The notes beneath the pieces were generated by a model. The model had not been told where the DNA came from, made no database searches, and was given only the letters and a program-made list of their open reading frames with translations. DNA of 64,000 bases from Paramacrobiotus metropolitanus. Taxonomy: Eukaryota > Tardigrada > Eutardigrada > Parachela > Macrobiotidae. The position numbers were made by a program, and so were the translations under genes. Shown here in pieces: positions 34,647 through 47,300 of this stretch (its first letter is position 1; every line of letters begins with the position of its first letter). The DNA lies in the NCBI RefSeq assembly GCF_019649055.1, contig NW_026570292.1, positions 558,001 through 622,000 of the forward strand, in the 5' to 3' direction.

Positions 34647-35798
34647 TCACACCGGCAGACACGGGCACTGCAGTCGTCGCAGTTCCTCTTTCAGGAGGAC
34701 GATTGCAACGTCTCTGGACCGTAACTGCTCCTGCAGACGCGCGTTCTCCTCCATCAACGCAGCCAATTGCGCCTGTAGTGATTGTGTATTCGTGCAGCAT
34801 GCTTCTCGTGGCTGCACGGGGATATCAGGAATCTCCGATGTCGCAGCATCTTCTTGGGGAAGGAGGGAGGGAGGACGCTGATCACTCGCCATCTGAACAG
34901 GAGGAGGACATTCCGACGGTGCGGCCATGCTCGTTTCGACCGGTGGTTTTCGTTCAGCTGCTTTTCCGCGTTTGGTTGACGCTACGGAGTTCTGAAAAAA
35001 GGCATACAGGCTTTACTTCATTACAAACCCATCTTGAAGTCTTCTGAAGAAGACATACAGTCTTTACTTTATAACTAACTCTTTATAAGCGCAATGCATA
35101 GAATCGAGGACCAATGCATATACTGTACGCATCGTAGTGTAATGGCAGACACGCTTATTCATCAGTAATTATTCTATCACCATCACCGCGAAAGCCTTCG
35201 TAAAAAACGCAGTAAAATTATCAGTGTTTTAGACTTACTTAATTTTTTCAGCCTTCGTAAACCATGTGCACATAATCAGAAGCCAAATAATAGGATATAA
35301 CGGATAATATCAAAATAGCGATTAAACTAACCAGACCAGTATACAAACTACGGTTTATAAAAAAAATGGAACGAAACACCAGTAATGAATTCAAGCTCCA
35401 CCTGACCATGAGTGGAAGACACTACTCTCGTACCCTCACGGCCTTACCCGAGCAGATTTGCCAGCGGCTTCTTGCAGGCGCGCATGAATCCTGGTCCGCG
35501 ACATCGGCCGGTCGGGATGCAGCGAGTTCCATGCCGCGGCGATGGTCCTGATAGAATCGCCCTGATGATGGTCTCGCACAAACTGCAGGAGCTCGGCGTC
35601 TTGTTCGGGGGTTGTGCTGGGTTTTTTCCCGCCTGGTTTGCGATCGTTTAGCAGGCCAGTGTGCGGATCAAATCGGGCCAAAACATAGATAATCCAGGAT
35701 TTGCTCATGTCAAACAGTTTAGCCAGGGCAGATAAGCTGTGGGTCTGTCGGGCTCGATGCACGGCCATCGCCAATGTGGAAGGAATGGTCTTGGGCAT
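34647..35798 (-). CDS. HTH-coiled-coil-CPCLP protein, paralog A, 2 exons
   Basis: Minus-strand exons are 35448-35798 and 34647-34991, encoding 231 residues, phase 0 junction. The N-terminal half has two helix-turn-helix-like segments (SLSALAKLFDMSKSWIIYVL, then STTPEQDAELLQFVRDHH...SIRTIAAAWN...MSRTRIHARLQEA), an arrangement typical of Tc1/mariner transposase DNA-binding domains. No DDE catalytic domain follows. The protein instead has a low-complexity region and a coiled coil (LQAQLAALMEENARLQEQLR), ending LRRLQCPCLPV. The same tail closes paralogs B and C. Here alone an intron separates the two halves. A transposase-derived DNA-binding protein that dimerises through the coiled coil is inferred; the target is unknown. 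Confidence 0.7.
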
Positions 35799-35998
35799 GG
35801 TGCAGTTGGTATTCAAAAAAATCAAAGCGATTGGATTAACCGTAACATTAGCGTGATGTGATATTGCAACTAGTGCTTGCAAAAGGGTTCTTGCAAAACA
35901 GCAAAAGGCAATATAAACTTCAGTAAGTACGAGTTTATTGAGATGTTGAAGTATTCGAGTCGCAAAAATAAGAATCAGCTGTATCTGCAATAGTTGCT

Positions 35999-36021
35999 TT
36001 GGCTGCCACCCGTAAGCGGTA
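35999..36021 (-). promoter_or_regulatory. Shared upstream element of HTH-CPCLP gene A
   Basis: On the plus strand it reads TTGGCTGCCACCC, four variable bases, GCGGTA. The same pattern lies upstream of paralogs B and C at a similar distance (about 200 bp from the ATG). It could be a promoter or factor-binding element, or a duplicated remnant. Confidence 0.6.
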
Positions 36022-36412
36022 TGTCACACTTTCGAATTCCCAAATTTGCTGGCTATTTTTTAACAATAAAACTGATATTCAAATAAATTTTTGCATGACC
36101 TCAGGATTCACATTTCCGATAACTTATGTCGCTAAAAAATTACATTACGTCTCTGTTAGTACTTCAAATAATAGGGAAACGAAGGAAAGGAAACAGTGGA
36201 TCTTTACTTTCGGAATGTGTGTAATACTTTTTTAACGTGCTGACCCTTTTCCAAAAGCCTTTCTGTCATTCAATAAGCTTTATAAAAATTATTTCAATCG
36301 TACTTGTGCCTGATCTGACGAACCGCTATTAATTTCATAATTCCTGATTCTTTCAAATCCCTGAGATCGTTTTTACACAAGAAAACATAGCCCATGCTGA
36401 AGATCTTAAACA
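36022..36412. other. Spacer between paralogs A and B
   Basis: AT-rich; no gene seen. It holds the 5' flank of A and the 3' flank of B. Confidence 0.4.
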
Positions 36413-37012
36413 TCACTCAGGCAGACACGGACACTGCGCCATTCGCAGCTGTTCTTTCAAAACAACAATCTCCAACTCTCTCGACCGTAAGCGAGCCTGC
36501 AAAGATGATACATCCTCCGCCTCCAAGCGAGCGATTTCCGCGTCCTTGGATCGCAGTTGCTCCTGTAAACGAGCGATTTCCCCCTTCAACGTGGCGACTT
36601 CGGACTGTGGTGGTTCACTGGCATTTGCATCTGGCTGCACGCAAACCTTGCGAACGCCGTTCTGCATACCGTCATTGTGGTATCCTGCTTCGCGGACGCG
36701 GCGGGCAATGGTGCTCCTTCCCACCTCCATCGGCTCAGGATCGTTTTCCAGAATCTCCGCAATCTCGGCGTACGTGCGATCCTGAGTCACGAGACTGATG
36801 ATCTTGCGATCCTGGGCGGCGGTGGTTTTGCGCTTCGGGGGCTTGGGGGGTTTGGTGTTTTTGGGACTGCCGTCCGGGTGATAATTGTACAGCACATTAT
36901 GCACCCAGGCCATAGAATGATTAAATTCCATTCCGATGTCGTAATAACGTGTTCCCTGCTTTCTGAGTTGGTGCACGCGTTGCACGATGGCAGGACTGAT
37001 CCTGACAGCCAT
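36413..37012 (-). CDS. HTH-coiled-coil-CPCLP protein, paralog B, single exon
   Basis: An intronless 199-residue frame starts at the ATG at 37012, chosen because RISPAIVQRVHQLR then aligns with the start of paralog C. The first helix-turn-helix spans about residues 5-40 (YYDIGMEFNHSMAWVHNVL). A basic linker and a second helix-turn-helix follow (KTTAAQDRKIISLVTQDRTY, AEIAEIL, STIARRVREAGY). Residues about 125-195 form a heptad-rich coiled coil (ARLQEQLRSKDAEIARLEAE, LRSRELEIVVLKEQLRMAQ), and the last residues are CPCLPE. No transposase catalytic residues are present. Function unknown; sequence-specific DNA binding is inferred. Confidence 0.8.
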   Translation of the reverse strand: MAVRISPAIVQRVHQLRKQGTRYYDIGMEFNHSMAWVHNVLYNYHPDGSPKNTKPPKPPKRKTTAAQDRKIISLVTQDRTYAEIAEILENDPEPMEVGRSTIARRVREAGYHNDGMQNGVRKVCVQPDANASEPPQSEVATLKGEIARLQEQLRSKDAEIARLEAEDVSSLQARLRSRELEIVVLKEQLRMAQCPCLPE

Positions 37013-37198
37013 TGCGATACCACACAACACTCGGATATTGGTTAATATTTTCAATCACGGTATTAGACTGCGCGGCAGAAATGTGGGATAAAGCTTAGAA
37101 ATATTGGTAAATTCATCAAGGAATATTTCTTATTTTTAGAATAAATACGTTTTCGTTCATTCAGATTTCCAAAATTCGCAACACTGCAGAAGTGGCTT

Positions 37199-37221
37199 TT
37201 GGCTGCCACCCACACGCGGTA
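37199..37221 (-). promoter_or_regulatory. Shared upstream element of HTH-CPCLP gene B
   Basis: It has the same TTGGCTGCCACCC-N4-GCGGTA pattern as at 35999 and 38438, about 190 bp upstream of the ATG of paralog B. The next 20 or so bases also resemble those at copy C (CCTACTGCGCAAG against CCTATTGCACAAG). Confidence 0.65.
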
Positions 37222-37617
37222 ACCTACTGCGCAAGTCTGCTCAGAGTCTCAGACAACGGAAGACTTCAAGAAATCGTCAACTACTCAAGTCGTACGAGTG
37301 CACACGTCGTACTGCGTAGTTTTTATTTTTTAATAAGGAAATAATTAATTTCAACTTTTAAGTTTTAACTGAAATTGTTGTTGTGCCACCATAAGAAAAT
37401 TCTAATTTTAAAAAGTACTTCTTAACAATTTCTTTATCGCAGTCACTATTTTTCACCTTGCACAATTTGAAATCACATGAATTTATATTAGTACATTTCC
37501 CACTGATCTAGTCGTCGAATCCCATTTAATTTCACAATTCCCGATACCCTCCAAAGGCCGAGAATGTTTATACAAGCATATGTACACAAGTACACAACCA
37601 TACCAAACGGCATGAGA
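37222..37617. other. Spacer between paralogs B and C
   Basis: AT-rich; no gene is visible beyond the regulatory element of B and the 3' flank of C. Confidence 0.4.
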
Positions 37618-38214
37618 TTACTCAGGCAAACACGGACACTGCGCCATGCGCAGCTGCTCCTTCAAAACAATAATCTCCAAGTCCCGCGACCGTACTCCCT
37701 CCTGCAGACGTTTGATTTCTACGTCCCGCAACTGCAGCTGCCCCTGCAGGCGGGAAACTTCCTCCTTCAACGCAGCGACTTCCGACCGTGCTGACTGCGC
37801 ATCGGTCTGCGGGGGTACCTTGCCCGTCCGCTTCTCCCTATCCTGCACCACACCGTCCGTTCTGGTACTAGTACGTCTTGCTTCCTGTACGCGCTTGGCA
37901 ATAGTTCCCTTCCCCACCAGCACCGGCTCGGGCTCATTCTGCAGAATCTCGACAATCTCCGCGTACGTGTGGTCCTGCGCGTTGAGCATGAGGATCTTGC
38001 GATCCTGGGCGGCGGTGGTGCGGCGCTTTAGCTGTTTCCGGGGTTTCGTGTTCTTGGATGTGCCGTCGGGGTGGAACTTTTTCATCACGTGATGCACCCA
38101 GGCCTTGGTACGGTCGAATTCCAATCCGATTTCGTAGTACGTTTTTCCCTGCATTCGCAGCTCGTGCACGCGTTGCACAATGGACGGACTGATTCTTGTG
38201 CTGTGTTCGCTCAT
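37618..38214 (-). CDS. HTH-coiled-coil-CPCLP protein, paralog C, single exon
   Basis: A single 198-residue exon starts at the ATG at 38214. It aligns end to end with paralog B: RISPSIVQRVHELRMQGKTY, a first helix-turn-helix, RTTAAQDRKILMLNAQDHTY, a second helix-turn-helix ending GTIAKRVQEA, then a coiled coil (EVAALKEEVSRLQGQLQLRD, LRMAQ) and the terminal CPCLPE. The middle linker differs strongly between paralogs, while the HTH and the tail are conserved. That pattern suggests purifying selection on DNA binding and on the tail. Function unknown. Confidence 0.8.
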   Translation of the reverse strand: MSEHSTRISPSIVQRVHELRMQGKTYYEIGLEFDRTKAWVHHVMKKFHPDGTSKNTKPRKQLKRRTTAAQDRKILMLNAQDHTYAEIVEILQNEPEPVLVGKGTIAKRVQEARRTSTRTDGVVQDREKRTGKVPPQTDAQSARSEVAALKEEVSRLQGQLQLRDVEIKRLQEGVRSRDLEIIVLKEQLRMAQCPCLPE

Positions 38215-38437: not shown

Positions 38438-38460
38438 TTGGCTGCCACCCATCAGCGGTA
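38438..38460 (-). promoter_or_regulatory. Shared upstream element of HTH-CPCLP gene C
   Basis: Third copy of the TTGGCTGCCACCC-N4-GCGGTA pattern, about 225 bp upstream of the paralog C start. Confidence 0.65.
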
Positions 38461-44392: not shown

Positions 44393-47300
44393 ATGTCGCG
44401 TACAAAATCTTTCATCAGTTCAGAGCGTCGCGGCACTATATTCCGGATGACTAATCGCTGGAAGAACGCACTGGAGAACGGGGAGCTGACAGATGTGGCA
44501 TTTTCCGTGGGACGTGATCATGGTCTGGTTAAACTGCTCCGCGCTCACAAACTGCTGCTGAGTTTGAGCAGCGATGTGTTCCATGCGATGTTCAACGGGA
44601 ATTTCACTGAAAATCAGACCAAGGCCATAGAAATCCCCGACATTTCTCCGGACGCATTCTCCAACCTGCTGGATTTTCTCTATACGGAGACCATGGAGAA
44701 TCTGACGCCCGAGAATGTCCTGCAGACCCTGTACGCCGCGGAAAAATACGATTTACCTTGGCTGGCCGATCACTGCACCCAGTTTGTCCTGGAGAAGTTG
44801 GATTGGGATAATTGCTTGACGTTGTTGGATGGTGCGCTGCATCTGACTCCCGATTGTGACGTTATTGTGGAGGAATGTTTGCGTATCGTAGACTGGGCGG
44901 GCATCGGTGTGTTGTATGGTGAGCACTTCTCGACCATCCGTCGCAAAACACTGGAGACAATTGTGCAGCGTGACTCACTGGATGCTGAGGAACATGTTAT
45001 CTATCTGGCCGTCGACATGTGGGCGTCGGCGGCATGTGGTCGAGCTGGACTGTCCCCGTCCGCGGCTAATCTGCGTCGGGTGCTCGGTTATGCTTTGTTC
45101 CAGGTGAAATTACGGTTGATAATATTTTGTTATCAGGATTTTGAATTTTATACGTTAACAGTTACCTAACTCAAGATCAAACTGGCTTTCTTACATTAAC
45201 AAGGTCTTTGAGGGAAAAATTGATTTTTAATATAATGAAATACTTCTGATTAAGTTATTTTAAGCGAAAAACATCATGGAATAAGAATTGACGAAACACA
45301 GTTGACAAATGTGGAAATTAACGGTTTTTATTTCACTTTTTGCGTGCCGAAACGTAATCCGGTAATCGCGCTACGTTTTGCTTTTTAATTGTAGTTTTTT
45401 ACTTATAATTTTTTAAAAAAACTGTAAAATCATGTTTTTACAGAGACATATAAGTAATAGTTATACGACATCATCATATAAAATATTTTGATTAACAATA
45501 AGGATCAGCTTTTTAAAAAAGCTGCTCTGGATCTTTGGTGTTTTTAAAAAAGCTGCTCTGGATCTTTTTCGGGGAGAACGCGTGCTTTTGCTGTTATTTA
45601 CCGTTGAGTCCATTGCGATGGCTCTCGGTAAACTGGGTATGTCGTTGCCTGCTATTGCGTTCTCACTCGGGTTTGTCAGTTCTCTTTTTGGCTTTGGAAG
45701 TTGTTTGTAGGATATTGTTCACCATGAGTTTCAAGTGCGACCTGTGCAATAAGATCCTGAAATCAGCTCACGGTCTTACAGCGCATCGGGATTCAAACGT
45801 CTGCAAGAAGGCCCAGGCGCAAGCTCTACGCCAGAGACCTGAAGAACCCCTTAACCAGGCTCATGCTGCAGAGAAACGAAGTCTTCAAGATCGTATAATC
45901 GAGTCAAGGAAAGCCCACGCTGTTCTCCGCCATGTGCCTACAGGAGCAAGACGAGCGTGTGCCGAAGTTCTACGTAAAGTAATTACGGACTGCGTGGAAA
46001 AGAACGATGAGAATTCGTGGGCAGCCCTGATGCTTTTTGCATTGGACAATTTGCACGCTCCTCCGTCTAATTCTGGCCGCGGTCCCACTTTAGCTGCGTC
46101 CGTAAAAGCCAACTTACAGGGTACTACACTGCCTACCAAAGCGAGGAAATCGAGAAAGAAGCGATCCGGGGACGAAGCATTGAGAAAAGCAGTCAACGCC
46201 AAGTTACAAGACGGGGATATCAGTGGTGCAGTAAAATTGTTAACTTCAGATGAGTCTGTTGCAGCCATGTCGGGCGAAGTTCTACAATCACTGAAAGACA
46301 AACATCCAGCAGCTCCTGCAGACCTGAATTTCCCTTCGCCACCTCCCGCTGGCAACCCCCAAGAATTCACAACGGAGGAAGTACACGCTGCATTGAAATC
46401 GTTTCCCGCGGGCTCTGCCGCTGGTCCGGACGGACTGAGAGCTCAGCACTTGAAGGAGCTGGTTAAAGTGCCTGGAGAGTGTGGTGAAATGCTGTTGGCT
46501 GCACTTACGAAACTCGTCAACCACATTATTTTTGAATCGATCCCTGAAAGTGTACGAACTGTTCTATTTGGCGCCACGCTTATTCCTTTGAACAAGAAGT
46601 CGGGTGGAATACGGCCCATAGCAATCGGTTGTACCATACGACGCCTGTGCGGGAAGGTGATTAGTAAACGCGTTCAGTCCGAGTTAGGTGGGTTCTTTCG
46701 GCCAGTTCAGTTGGGATACGGAACACGGGGTGGAGCAGAAGCAGCTGTACATGTTACTCGGAAATTCCTTAGAGCGCACCCAGCCAGCCCCACTGTGATT
46801 TTGAAGTTGGATTTCCGCAATGCTTTCAATACTATACGCCGGGATGTAGTTTTAAAGGAAGCGGCGGAAAGGATTCCGCAATATTACCATTTCATTTCAC
46901 AGAGTTACAAAGAAAGTTCTACGTTGTTCTGTGGCGACACGACGATACTGTCTGCCAACGGTGTTCAGCAAGGAGATCCCCTCGGTCCATTACTGTTTTG
47001 CCTGGGCTCTAACAAACTAACTAGAAGCCTCCGCGCAGACCTGAACGTTTGGTACTTGGACGACGGGACGGAAGGAGGTGACCCGGAAGCTTGCCTGTTA
47101 TGAGCGTATATTAATCTGACCAATGCCGCATTCAGCTCTGCTTGTCTCTCTTGACTGAGAAATCAGCCAAATAAAAGACTGACGGAATCCTAGCCGGCGC
47201 ATCAGTACTCAATAGTATATGTCTCAGGTCAGCGCCTTGCTACAAATACTCAGAGAAGCTAAGAGAGTTTGACGCTGTGATTAAGTCAAGGCTGAAGAAA

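Follow-up and report, generated by a model that had tools for sequence, protein, structure and literature searches.

Organization of the locus

The tardigrade Paramacrobiotus metropolitanus carries a tandem family of three genes, here called A, B and C, in which helix-turn-helix (HTH) domains like those of Tc1-like transposases are joined to a coiled coil and a terminal CPCLP motif. We analyzed these genes within a window of 64 kb (C72:558001-622000, the whole stretch of DNA under study) and against the genome it belongs to (169.8 Mb on 533 contigs). By sequence comparison, the genes share one family of tails but hold HTHs of two distinct Tc1-like families, and the predicted intron of gene A contains the 3' end of an element of the family to which its HTH belongs.

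All three genes lie on the minus strand in the order C, B, A, and their reading frames were verified. Gene C (37618-38214, 198 amino acids) and gene B (36413-37012, 199 amino acids) are single-exon genes whose products begin with a double HTH and continue through a linker and a coiled coil to a terminal QCPCLPE. The predicted protein A (231 amino acids) results from two exons joined in silico, the first (35448-35798) encoding the double HTH and the second (34647-34991), delimited by reading frame and tail search, a long linker, the coiled coil and a terminal QCPCLPV. Between them, the predicted intron (34992-35447, 456 bp, GTAAGG...TTTTTTCAG) has GT-AG boundaries and keeps the frame. At the 3' end of this intron (34992-35069, minus strand) a short near-repeat (AAGTAAAGACTGTATGTCTTCTTCAG / AAGTAAAGCCTGTATGCCTTTTTTCAG) provides two candidate acceptors 52 nt apart, of which the second alone leaves the tail in frame. 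The stop codon directly follows QCPCLPE or QCPCLPV in all three genes.

A paired-like double HTH at the N-terminus was recovered in A, B and C by sequence searches, phylogenetic tree, AlphaFold2 and Foldseek. The AlphaFold2 model of B, calculated with an alignment of six, consists of helices at residues 7-18, 23-29 and 34-43 (HTH1) and 65-76, 81-89 and 99-108 (HTH2), a low-confidence linker (114-131) and a single helix (136-193) with CPCLPE right after it; the predicted local distance difference test score (pLDDT) was high in this long helix and 82 on average, with a predicted template modelling score (pTM) of just 0.32. For exon 1 of A, with an alignment of two, six matching helices were obtained (pLDDT 75 in the best model, 50-61 in the remaining four). 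Hydrophobic residues made up a fraction of 0.62-0.86 of the a and d positions of the coils, as counted on the sequence in the best of seven registers. In B and C the two HTHs are connected by basic linkers (KPPKPPKRK and KPRKQLKRR). No Pfam match to a DDE catalytic domain was present in A, B or C at an expect value (E) of 1 or less. The initial annotation, made from the letters alone, had described three minus-strand genes with this succession of double HTH, linker, coil and QCPCLPE or QCPCLPV with an immediate stop, and had noted the missing DDE domain; the frames and AlphaFold2 models bear out the former, and the Pfam result, together with the lack of a DDE core in A relative to its closest transposon, the latter.

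Two transposon origins of the HTH domains

The genome was searched with the proteins of the locus by scoring the best candidates only, so that all counts and statements of exclusiveness from these searches apply among the scored candidates. With protein C as the query, 24 candidates were scored and ten places reached E<=0.001, of which three lie in the genes described here and seven elsewhere. The latter were members of one transposon family, hereafter family I (the element on contig C253 and its kin on C3, C24, C84, C36 and C122), plus an HTH-only place on C6. C253 has an uninterrupted frame for HTH and DDE domains, with Pfam matches to DDE_3 (1.7e-17) and HTH_Tnp_Tc3_2 (5.1e-9) that both pass the curated cut-off. 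Within the HTH, the proteins B and C are 57% and 52% identical to C253, respectively. In the search with C, B was 60% identical to it. The HTH of A, on the other hand, is 71% identical to that of another element on contig C161 (query residues 3-113) and shares only about 27% identity with the HTH of C. This best parent for A, representing family II, has an uninterrupted frame of 365 codons with a DDE_3 match above the cut-off (7.8e-16) and HTH models below it. In the catalytic motif of both C253 and C161, 34 residues separate the second D from the E, as counted by eye from the frames.

These relationships were reflected in a maximum-likelihood tree of 17 hand-chosen HTH rows, a small sample in which family II is represented by a single row. 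Near-copies (C24, C8 and C59), broken or partial copies (C25, C122, C55, C141, C136, C51 and C34) and C10:1370780 were omitted, while C36 was kept although its frame stops early within the DDE part, and the row H_C52 forms a long branch. A was joined to C161 (support 98/96), and B and C grouped with four family I copies (100/99). On the combined evidence of searches and tree, the HTH of B and C is placed in Tc1-like family I and the HTH of A in the distinct Tc1-like family II. B and C appeared as sisters with modest support (85/82) and have in common a two-codon deletion in HTH2 that is found in none of the four aligned family I copies; because of this grouping and the shared deletion, their HTHs likely stem from one capture.

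A single capture for all three genes, followed by very rapid divergence of the A HTH and with the likeness between A and C161 due to convergence, would agree with their common tail, common upstream box and tandem arrangement. When A, B and C were forced into one clade, however, the log-likelihood was lower by 119.9 and the tree was rejected by the approximately unbiased test (p-AU 2e-65); this explanation is refuted under the model used and, given also the 71% identity of A to C161 and the element's 3' end inside the A intron, has next to no credibility. The initial annotation had proposed that one domesticated module was fused to a zipper and amplified. Its Tc1-like origin, lack of a DDE domain, zipper with CPCLP and tandem arrangement stand, but the tree replaces the single module by two families, and the accompanying statement that the HTH was kept among the paralogs proved wrong for A.

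The bipartite double-HTH fold is shared with the Pax paired domain. Among the Foldseek results for the locus, the first four were Pax5, the Tc3 bipartite domain, Pax6 and Prd (E 3e-3 to 2.6e-2), and a sequence profile search matched Pax5 at E 0.0013. Nevertheless, Pax proteins are not the closest kin: the nearest relatives in searches and tree were transposases of the same genome. A, B and C differ from Pax in deriving separately from same-genome Tc1-like elements and in carrying the coil and CPCLP where Pax proteins have their additional domains.

A transposon remnant in the predicted intron of gene A

The element on C161 is bounded by 38-bp terminal inverted repeats (TIRs) with TA at both ends, and its DDE domain occupies residues 163-304 of the transposase. 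At the A locus it produced two matches. The first (35836-35467, 75%, E 2e-70) covers the HTH part, and the second (35086-35427, minus strand, 60.5% over 352 columns, E 1e-10) is a fossil of a family II 3' end that runs from the last transposase codons through the 3' untranslated region (UTR) into the inner edge of the TIR. Both occur in the order and orientation of the C161 element, and are separated by 691 bp including the DDE domain in the element versus 39 bp in A. The fossil lies wholly inside the predicted intron, with the splice donor falling between the two matches. This collinear 3' end in the intron and the missing DDE core indicate that A is an internally deleted transposon flanked by the shared upstream box and the shared tail exon. 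Splice signals and an element remnant are thus both found in the predicted intron of A, while B and C are intronless.

The assignment of the fossil was supported by several controls. Across the whole 64-kb window, on both strands, the C161 element matched nothing at E<0.01 beyond the HTH exon and the intron of A, and the intron was also matched by the family II copies C124, C6:1046318 and C25 (the last in pieces). The score of the intron match was 40, compared to 24 for the best of 300 dinucleotide shuffles. When the window was divided into tiles and compared to the element alone, the A exon tile scored 139, the A intron tile 47 and the next best tile 25. With the flanks of C161 included, five of 280 tile-strand tests (four tiles, all outside A) exceeded the 47 of the intron with scores of 86, 82, 77, 63 and 51; we take these for repeats in the C161 flanks, gone when the element is used alone. 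One family I inner-TIR pattern and one family II TIR pattern, each with up to three mismatches, did not occur in the window. A comparable remnant in the 5' UTR of C was considered, as a lenient alignment to C253 reached 60 nt upstream of the ATG, and rejected, since the segment 38300-38203 by itself had a best E of 0.099.

A tail and an upstream box common to the three genes

Genome searches with the tails of C and B recovered the coil followed by CPCLP, as protein, at A, B and C only. The C tail matched five places at E<=10, namely the three genes (4.5e-28, 4.1e-13 and 5.9e-8) and two others at 0.02 and 0.31; the B tail matched 19 places, of which the three genes were the best (weakest 2.7e-6) and the next were at 0.11 or worse. 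At the DNA level, the tails of A and B are 74% identical over 94 nt including the stop codon. The finding named in the initial annotation as refuting it, intact DDE frames with the same tail, was not made: C253 and C161, the two such frames read to their ends, terminate differently and lack it. The closest coil outside the locus, on C35, was matched at E 0.0039 when the complete protein A served as query (residues 116-224 of 231 aligned); it has an internal stop and ends before CPCLP. The next-best matches to the tail are the coils of two loci that we read as THAP-like plus coil plus DDE_Tnp_4-like (L014, C35:910772-913888; L015, C41:545189-548323). A derivation of the coil from such THAP-DDE4-like elements was not adopted, since the matches on C35 and C41 (E 0.02 and 0.31; 0.0039 for C35 with A) are too weak. 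The bare CPCLP pattern in DNA was likewise dropped as evidence, its 192 places being near chance (160 for the reversed control).

In addition to the tail, a genome pattern search showed the box TACCGC-4-GGGTGGCAGCC upstream of each gene on the minus strand, at 36001-36021 for A, 37201-37221 for B and 38440-38460 for C (202, 188 and 225 nt before the ATG, respectively). These were the only three exact matches genome-wide, one per gene. With up to two mismatches the box occurred at 29 places in the genome (10 for the reversed control), and with up to three mismatches within the window three occurrences were observed and 0.04 expected. An interpretation of the box as the relic of an element end was discarded: the best ungapped match to the 5' ends of four elements was equalled by 25, 148, 143 and 266 of 300 shuffles. 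Judged from the sequence, A, B and C have a common frame of upstream box and tail with a different middle.

Purifying selection on genes B and C

The sequences of B and C were compared by the method of Nei and Gojobori (NG86), with 95% intervals from 500 bootstrap resamples. Nonsynonymous (dN) and synonymous (dS) divergence were 0.29 and 0.88, giving an approximate ratio (omega) of 0.33 (0.22-0.47, largest resample 0.60); with the method of Yang and Nielsen (YN00) the full-length values were dN 0.24, dS 1.76 and a ratio of 0.14. By parts, omega was 0.32 in the HTH and 0.18, a point estimate, in the tail, while the linker was the fastest-changing part (dN 0.76, dS 2.4, 20 codons). For A and C161 over the HTH an omega of 0.30 (0.19-0.47) was obtained, a value that includes selection on the transposase. 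By these estimates B and C are under purifying selection, in line with the earlier suggestion of selection on the paralogs, as the B/C ratio of 0.33 lies away from 1.

The genes could alternatively represent non-functional, decaying debris with chance fusion frames from dead elements, and another transposon relic is indeed nearby (a reverse transcriptase frame at 45535-47103). This is very unlikely, as the frames have remained open across a dS of about 0.9, omega has an upper bound of 0.47 over the B/C comparison and is lower still in the tail, and the box is exact only at this locus.

A proposed mechanism and candidate target sites

We consider it probable that a family of zipper tails acquired Tc1-like HTHs twice, that the products are dimeric DNA-binding proteins, and that their likeliest job is to occupy sites resembling transposon ends. 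Genes B and C would join the paired-like double HTH of family I to the coil and CPCLP with no intervening intron. Gene A would hold a family II element, devoid of its DDE part, between the common upstream box and the common tail exon, and splicing would join the HTH exon to the tail exon and remove the 3' end of the element as an intron. A parallel coiled-coil dimer would then present two bipartite HTH arms to DNA and place two CPC tails together at the end of the coil, where they might share a metal ion or form disulfides. Lacking a catalytic domain, such a dimer should be unable to cut DNA. Occupancy of end-like sites could result in trans-repression of the parental Tc1 families and their miniature inverted-repeat transposable elements (MITEs), comparable to the KP repressor, or in the control of genes near such sites.

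Candidate targets are abundant in the genome. The family II TIR pattern was found at 95 sites (74 of them exact over 30 bases) and the family I inner-TIR pattern at 363, with none for the reversed control in either case. That 74 of the 95 family II sites are identical over 30 bases would be a sign of recent spread. Many family II TIRs are arranged in pairs about 490-520 bp apart and are MITE-like, for example at C1:3618253-3618773 and C49:739459-739952.

A number of observations weigh against this proposal. In C, the recognition helices are identical to those of C253 at 8 of 20 positions, compared to 25 of 40 in the remaining helices and 26 of 53 elsewhere, and in B the corresponding values (13 of 20, 27 of 40 and 32 of 53) reveal no extra conservation. 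Because of the drift in C and the lack of extra conservation in B, these two proteins may have lost binding to family I ends; retention of end specificity through conserved recognition helices was accordingly not found for B and C. Recognition helix 1 of A is identical to that of C161 at nine of ten positions, but recognition helix 2 at just 8 of 14. Furthermore, the box is no closer to the ends of the four elements than shuffles are, which leaves autoregulation via ancestral ends unsupported; the Foldseek matches are weak (best E 3e-3, none of 437 at E<=0.001); the omega of B and C is only approximate with dS near 0.9; and that of A and C161 combines constraint on the transposase with constraint on A. 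A mariner HTH captured by Caenorhabditis F-box A2 proteins had no detectable in vitro binding to repeats of the ancestral type, according to PMC12062965.

Judged from the recognition-helix identities, KP-like repression would suit A best and C worst. Several of the same data are consistent with a possible, though less probable, role of the three proteins as host transcription factors with Pax-like action, in which they regulate host genes, the box reflects nothing more than common expression and transposon ends are now irrelevant. The fold matches to Pax5, Pax6 and Prd, the divergence of the C recognition helices, the lack of TIRs of either family in the window with as many as three mismatches allowed, and the purifying selection all agree with such a role. 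However, any double HTH of the Tc1 type would look Pax-like, the transposases of the same genome are far closer, and recognition helix 1 of A is almost that of the transposase. We therefore regard repression as somewhat likelier than an ordinary transcription-factor role.

The final CLPE or CLPV is spaced like a CaaX box. Prenylation is disfavoured by proline at the third place and by a final E or V. These features bear on an unlikely alternative without DNA binding, in which the HTH would be a platform for protein-protein contacts and the tail would anchor the protein, for example via a lipid or a metal; it has a precedent in what has been proposed for Caenorhabditis F-box A2 proteins (PMC12062965), but the basic linkers between the HTHs of B and C argue against it.

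A more far-reaching and rather improbable extension of the proposed end occupancy is that the locus works as an updatable, protein-based defence array, in which a fixed frame of box, acceptor, zipper and CPC tail takes up the HTHs of successive Tc1-like invaders. Each captured HTH would become a dominant-negative dimer covering the ends of the family it came from, with A targeting family II, and B and C targeting family I.

Comparison with known systems

Recruitment of transposon-derived DNA-binding domains has occurred repeatedly across animals, as described in PMC10027918. In the host-transposase fusions covered by PMC8616336, the DNA-binding domain of a transposase is spliced to another domain, with Tc1/mariner elements as frequent donors. 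The genes described here have such a transposase-derived domain, as indicated by the tree, and a partner of coil and CPCLP that is non-transposase by search. They differ in that one tail family is combined with HTHs of two Tc1-like families and that the remainder of an element is located in the predicted intron of A.

The F-box A2 genes of Caenorhabditis (PMC12062965) are similar as a gene family with a captured N-terminal Tc1/mariner HTH on a single exon, expansion and signs of purifying selection. Unlike the genes studied here, they have one origin, a simple tri-helical HTH and an F-box partner, and no consistent transposable element sequence flanks their HTH exons. In Drosophila, the P element gave rise to the KP repressor (PMC7776569), which is encoded by a transposon with an internal deletion and kept DNA binding and dimerisation without catalysis; an internally deleted transposon product with a DNA-binding domain corresponds here to gene A only. 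KP uses the zipper and THAP domain of its own transposase, whereas the zipper with CPCLP was not found in transposases and no TIRs are left at the locus described here.

Capture of transposase DNA-binding domains is already known. In the open-licence literature we found no description of a single partner module that is combined, at one locus, with HTHs from two transposon families and accompanied by an intronic remnant, which is weak evidence of absence. With two captures by one partner module, the fossil in the intron and uninterrupted parental frames for HTH plus DDE in the same genome, the steps of gene birth become directly testable. If the proposal is true, the locus would amount to a natural domain swap in which one and the same dimer module is combined with two DNA-binding specificities and known candidate targets.

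Other HTH loci and transposon relics

A second tandem array on contig C46 (L026, 178500-187500, minus strand) contains HTH-only frames of a third type, family III, at about 179117-179506, 182101-182484 and 185442-185834. The three frames are rich in K and R after the HTH, and the gene at 185442 is 48-52% identical to C132, C8, C16, C49 and C59; no DDE match was found near the array, and pairwise omega was 0.30-0.37. This array of a third family suggests repeated recruitment of such domains by the genome. HTH-only loci without a nearby DDE match were further observed at C52:338323-338679 (L050), C10:990223-990516 (L019) and C6:344743-345084 (L008), and each may represent a further Tc1-like HTH that was captured or truncated.

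Within the window, the frame at 45535-47103 on the plus strand is a retroelement relic with a C2H2-like start, recognized by eye, and a reverse transcriptase (RVT_1, 3.9e-16).

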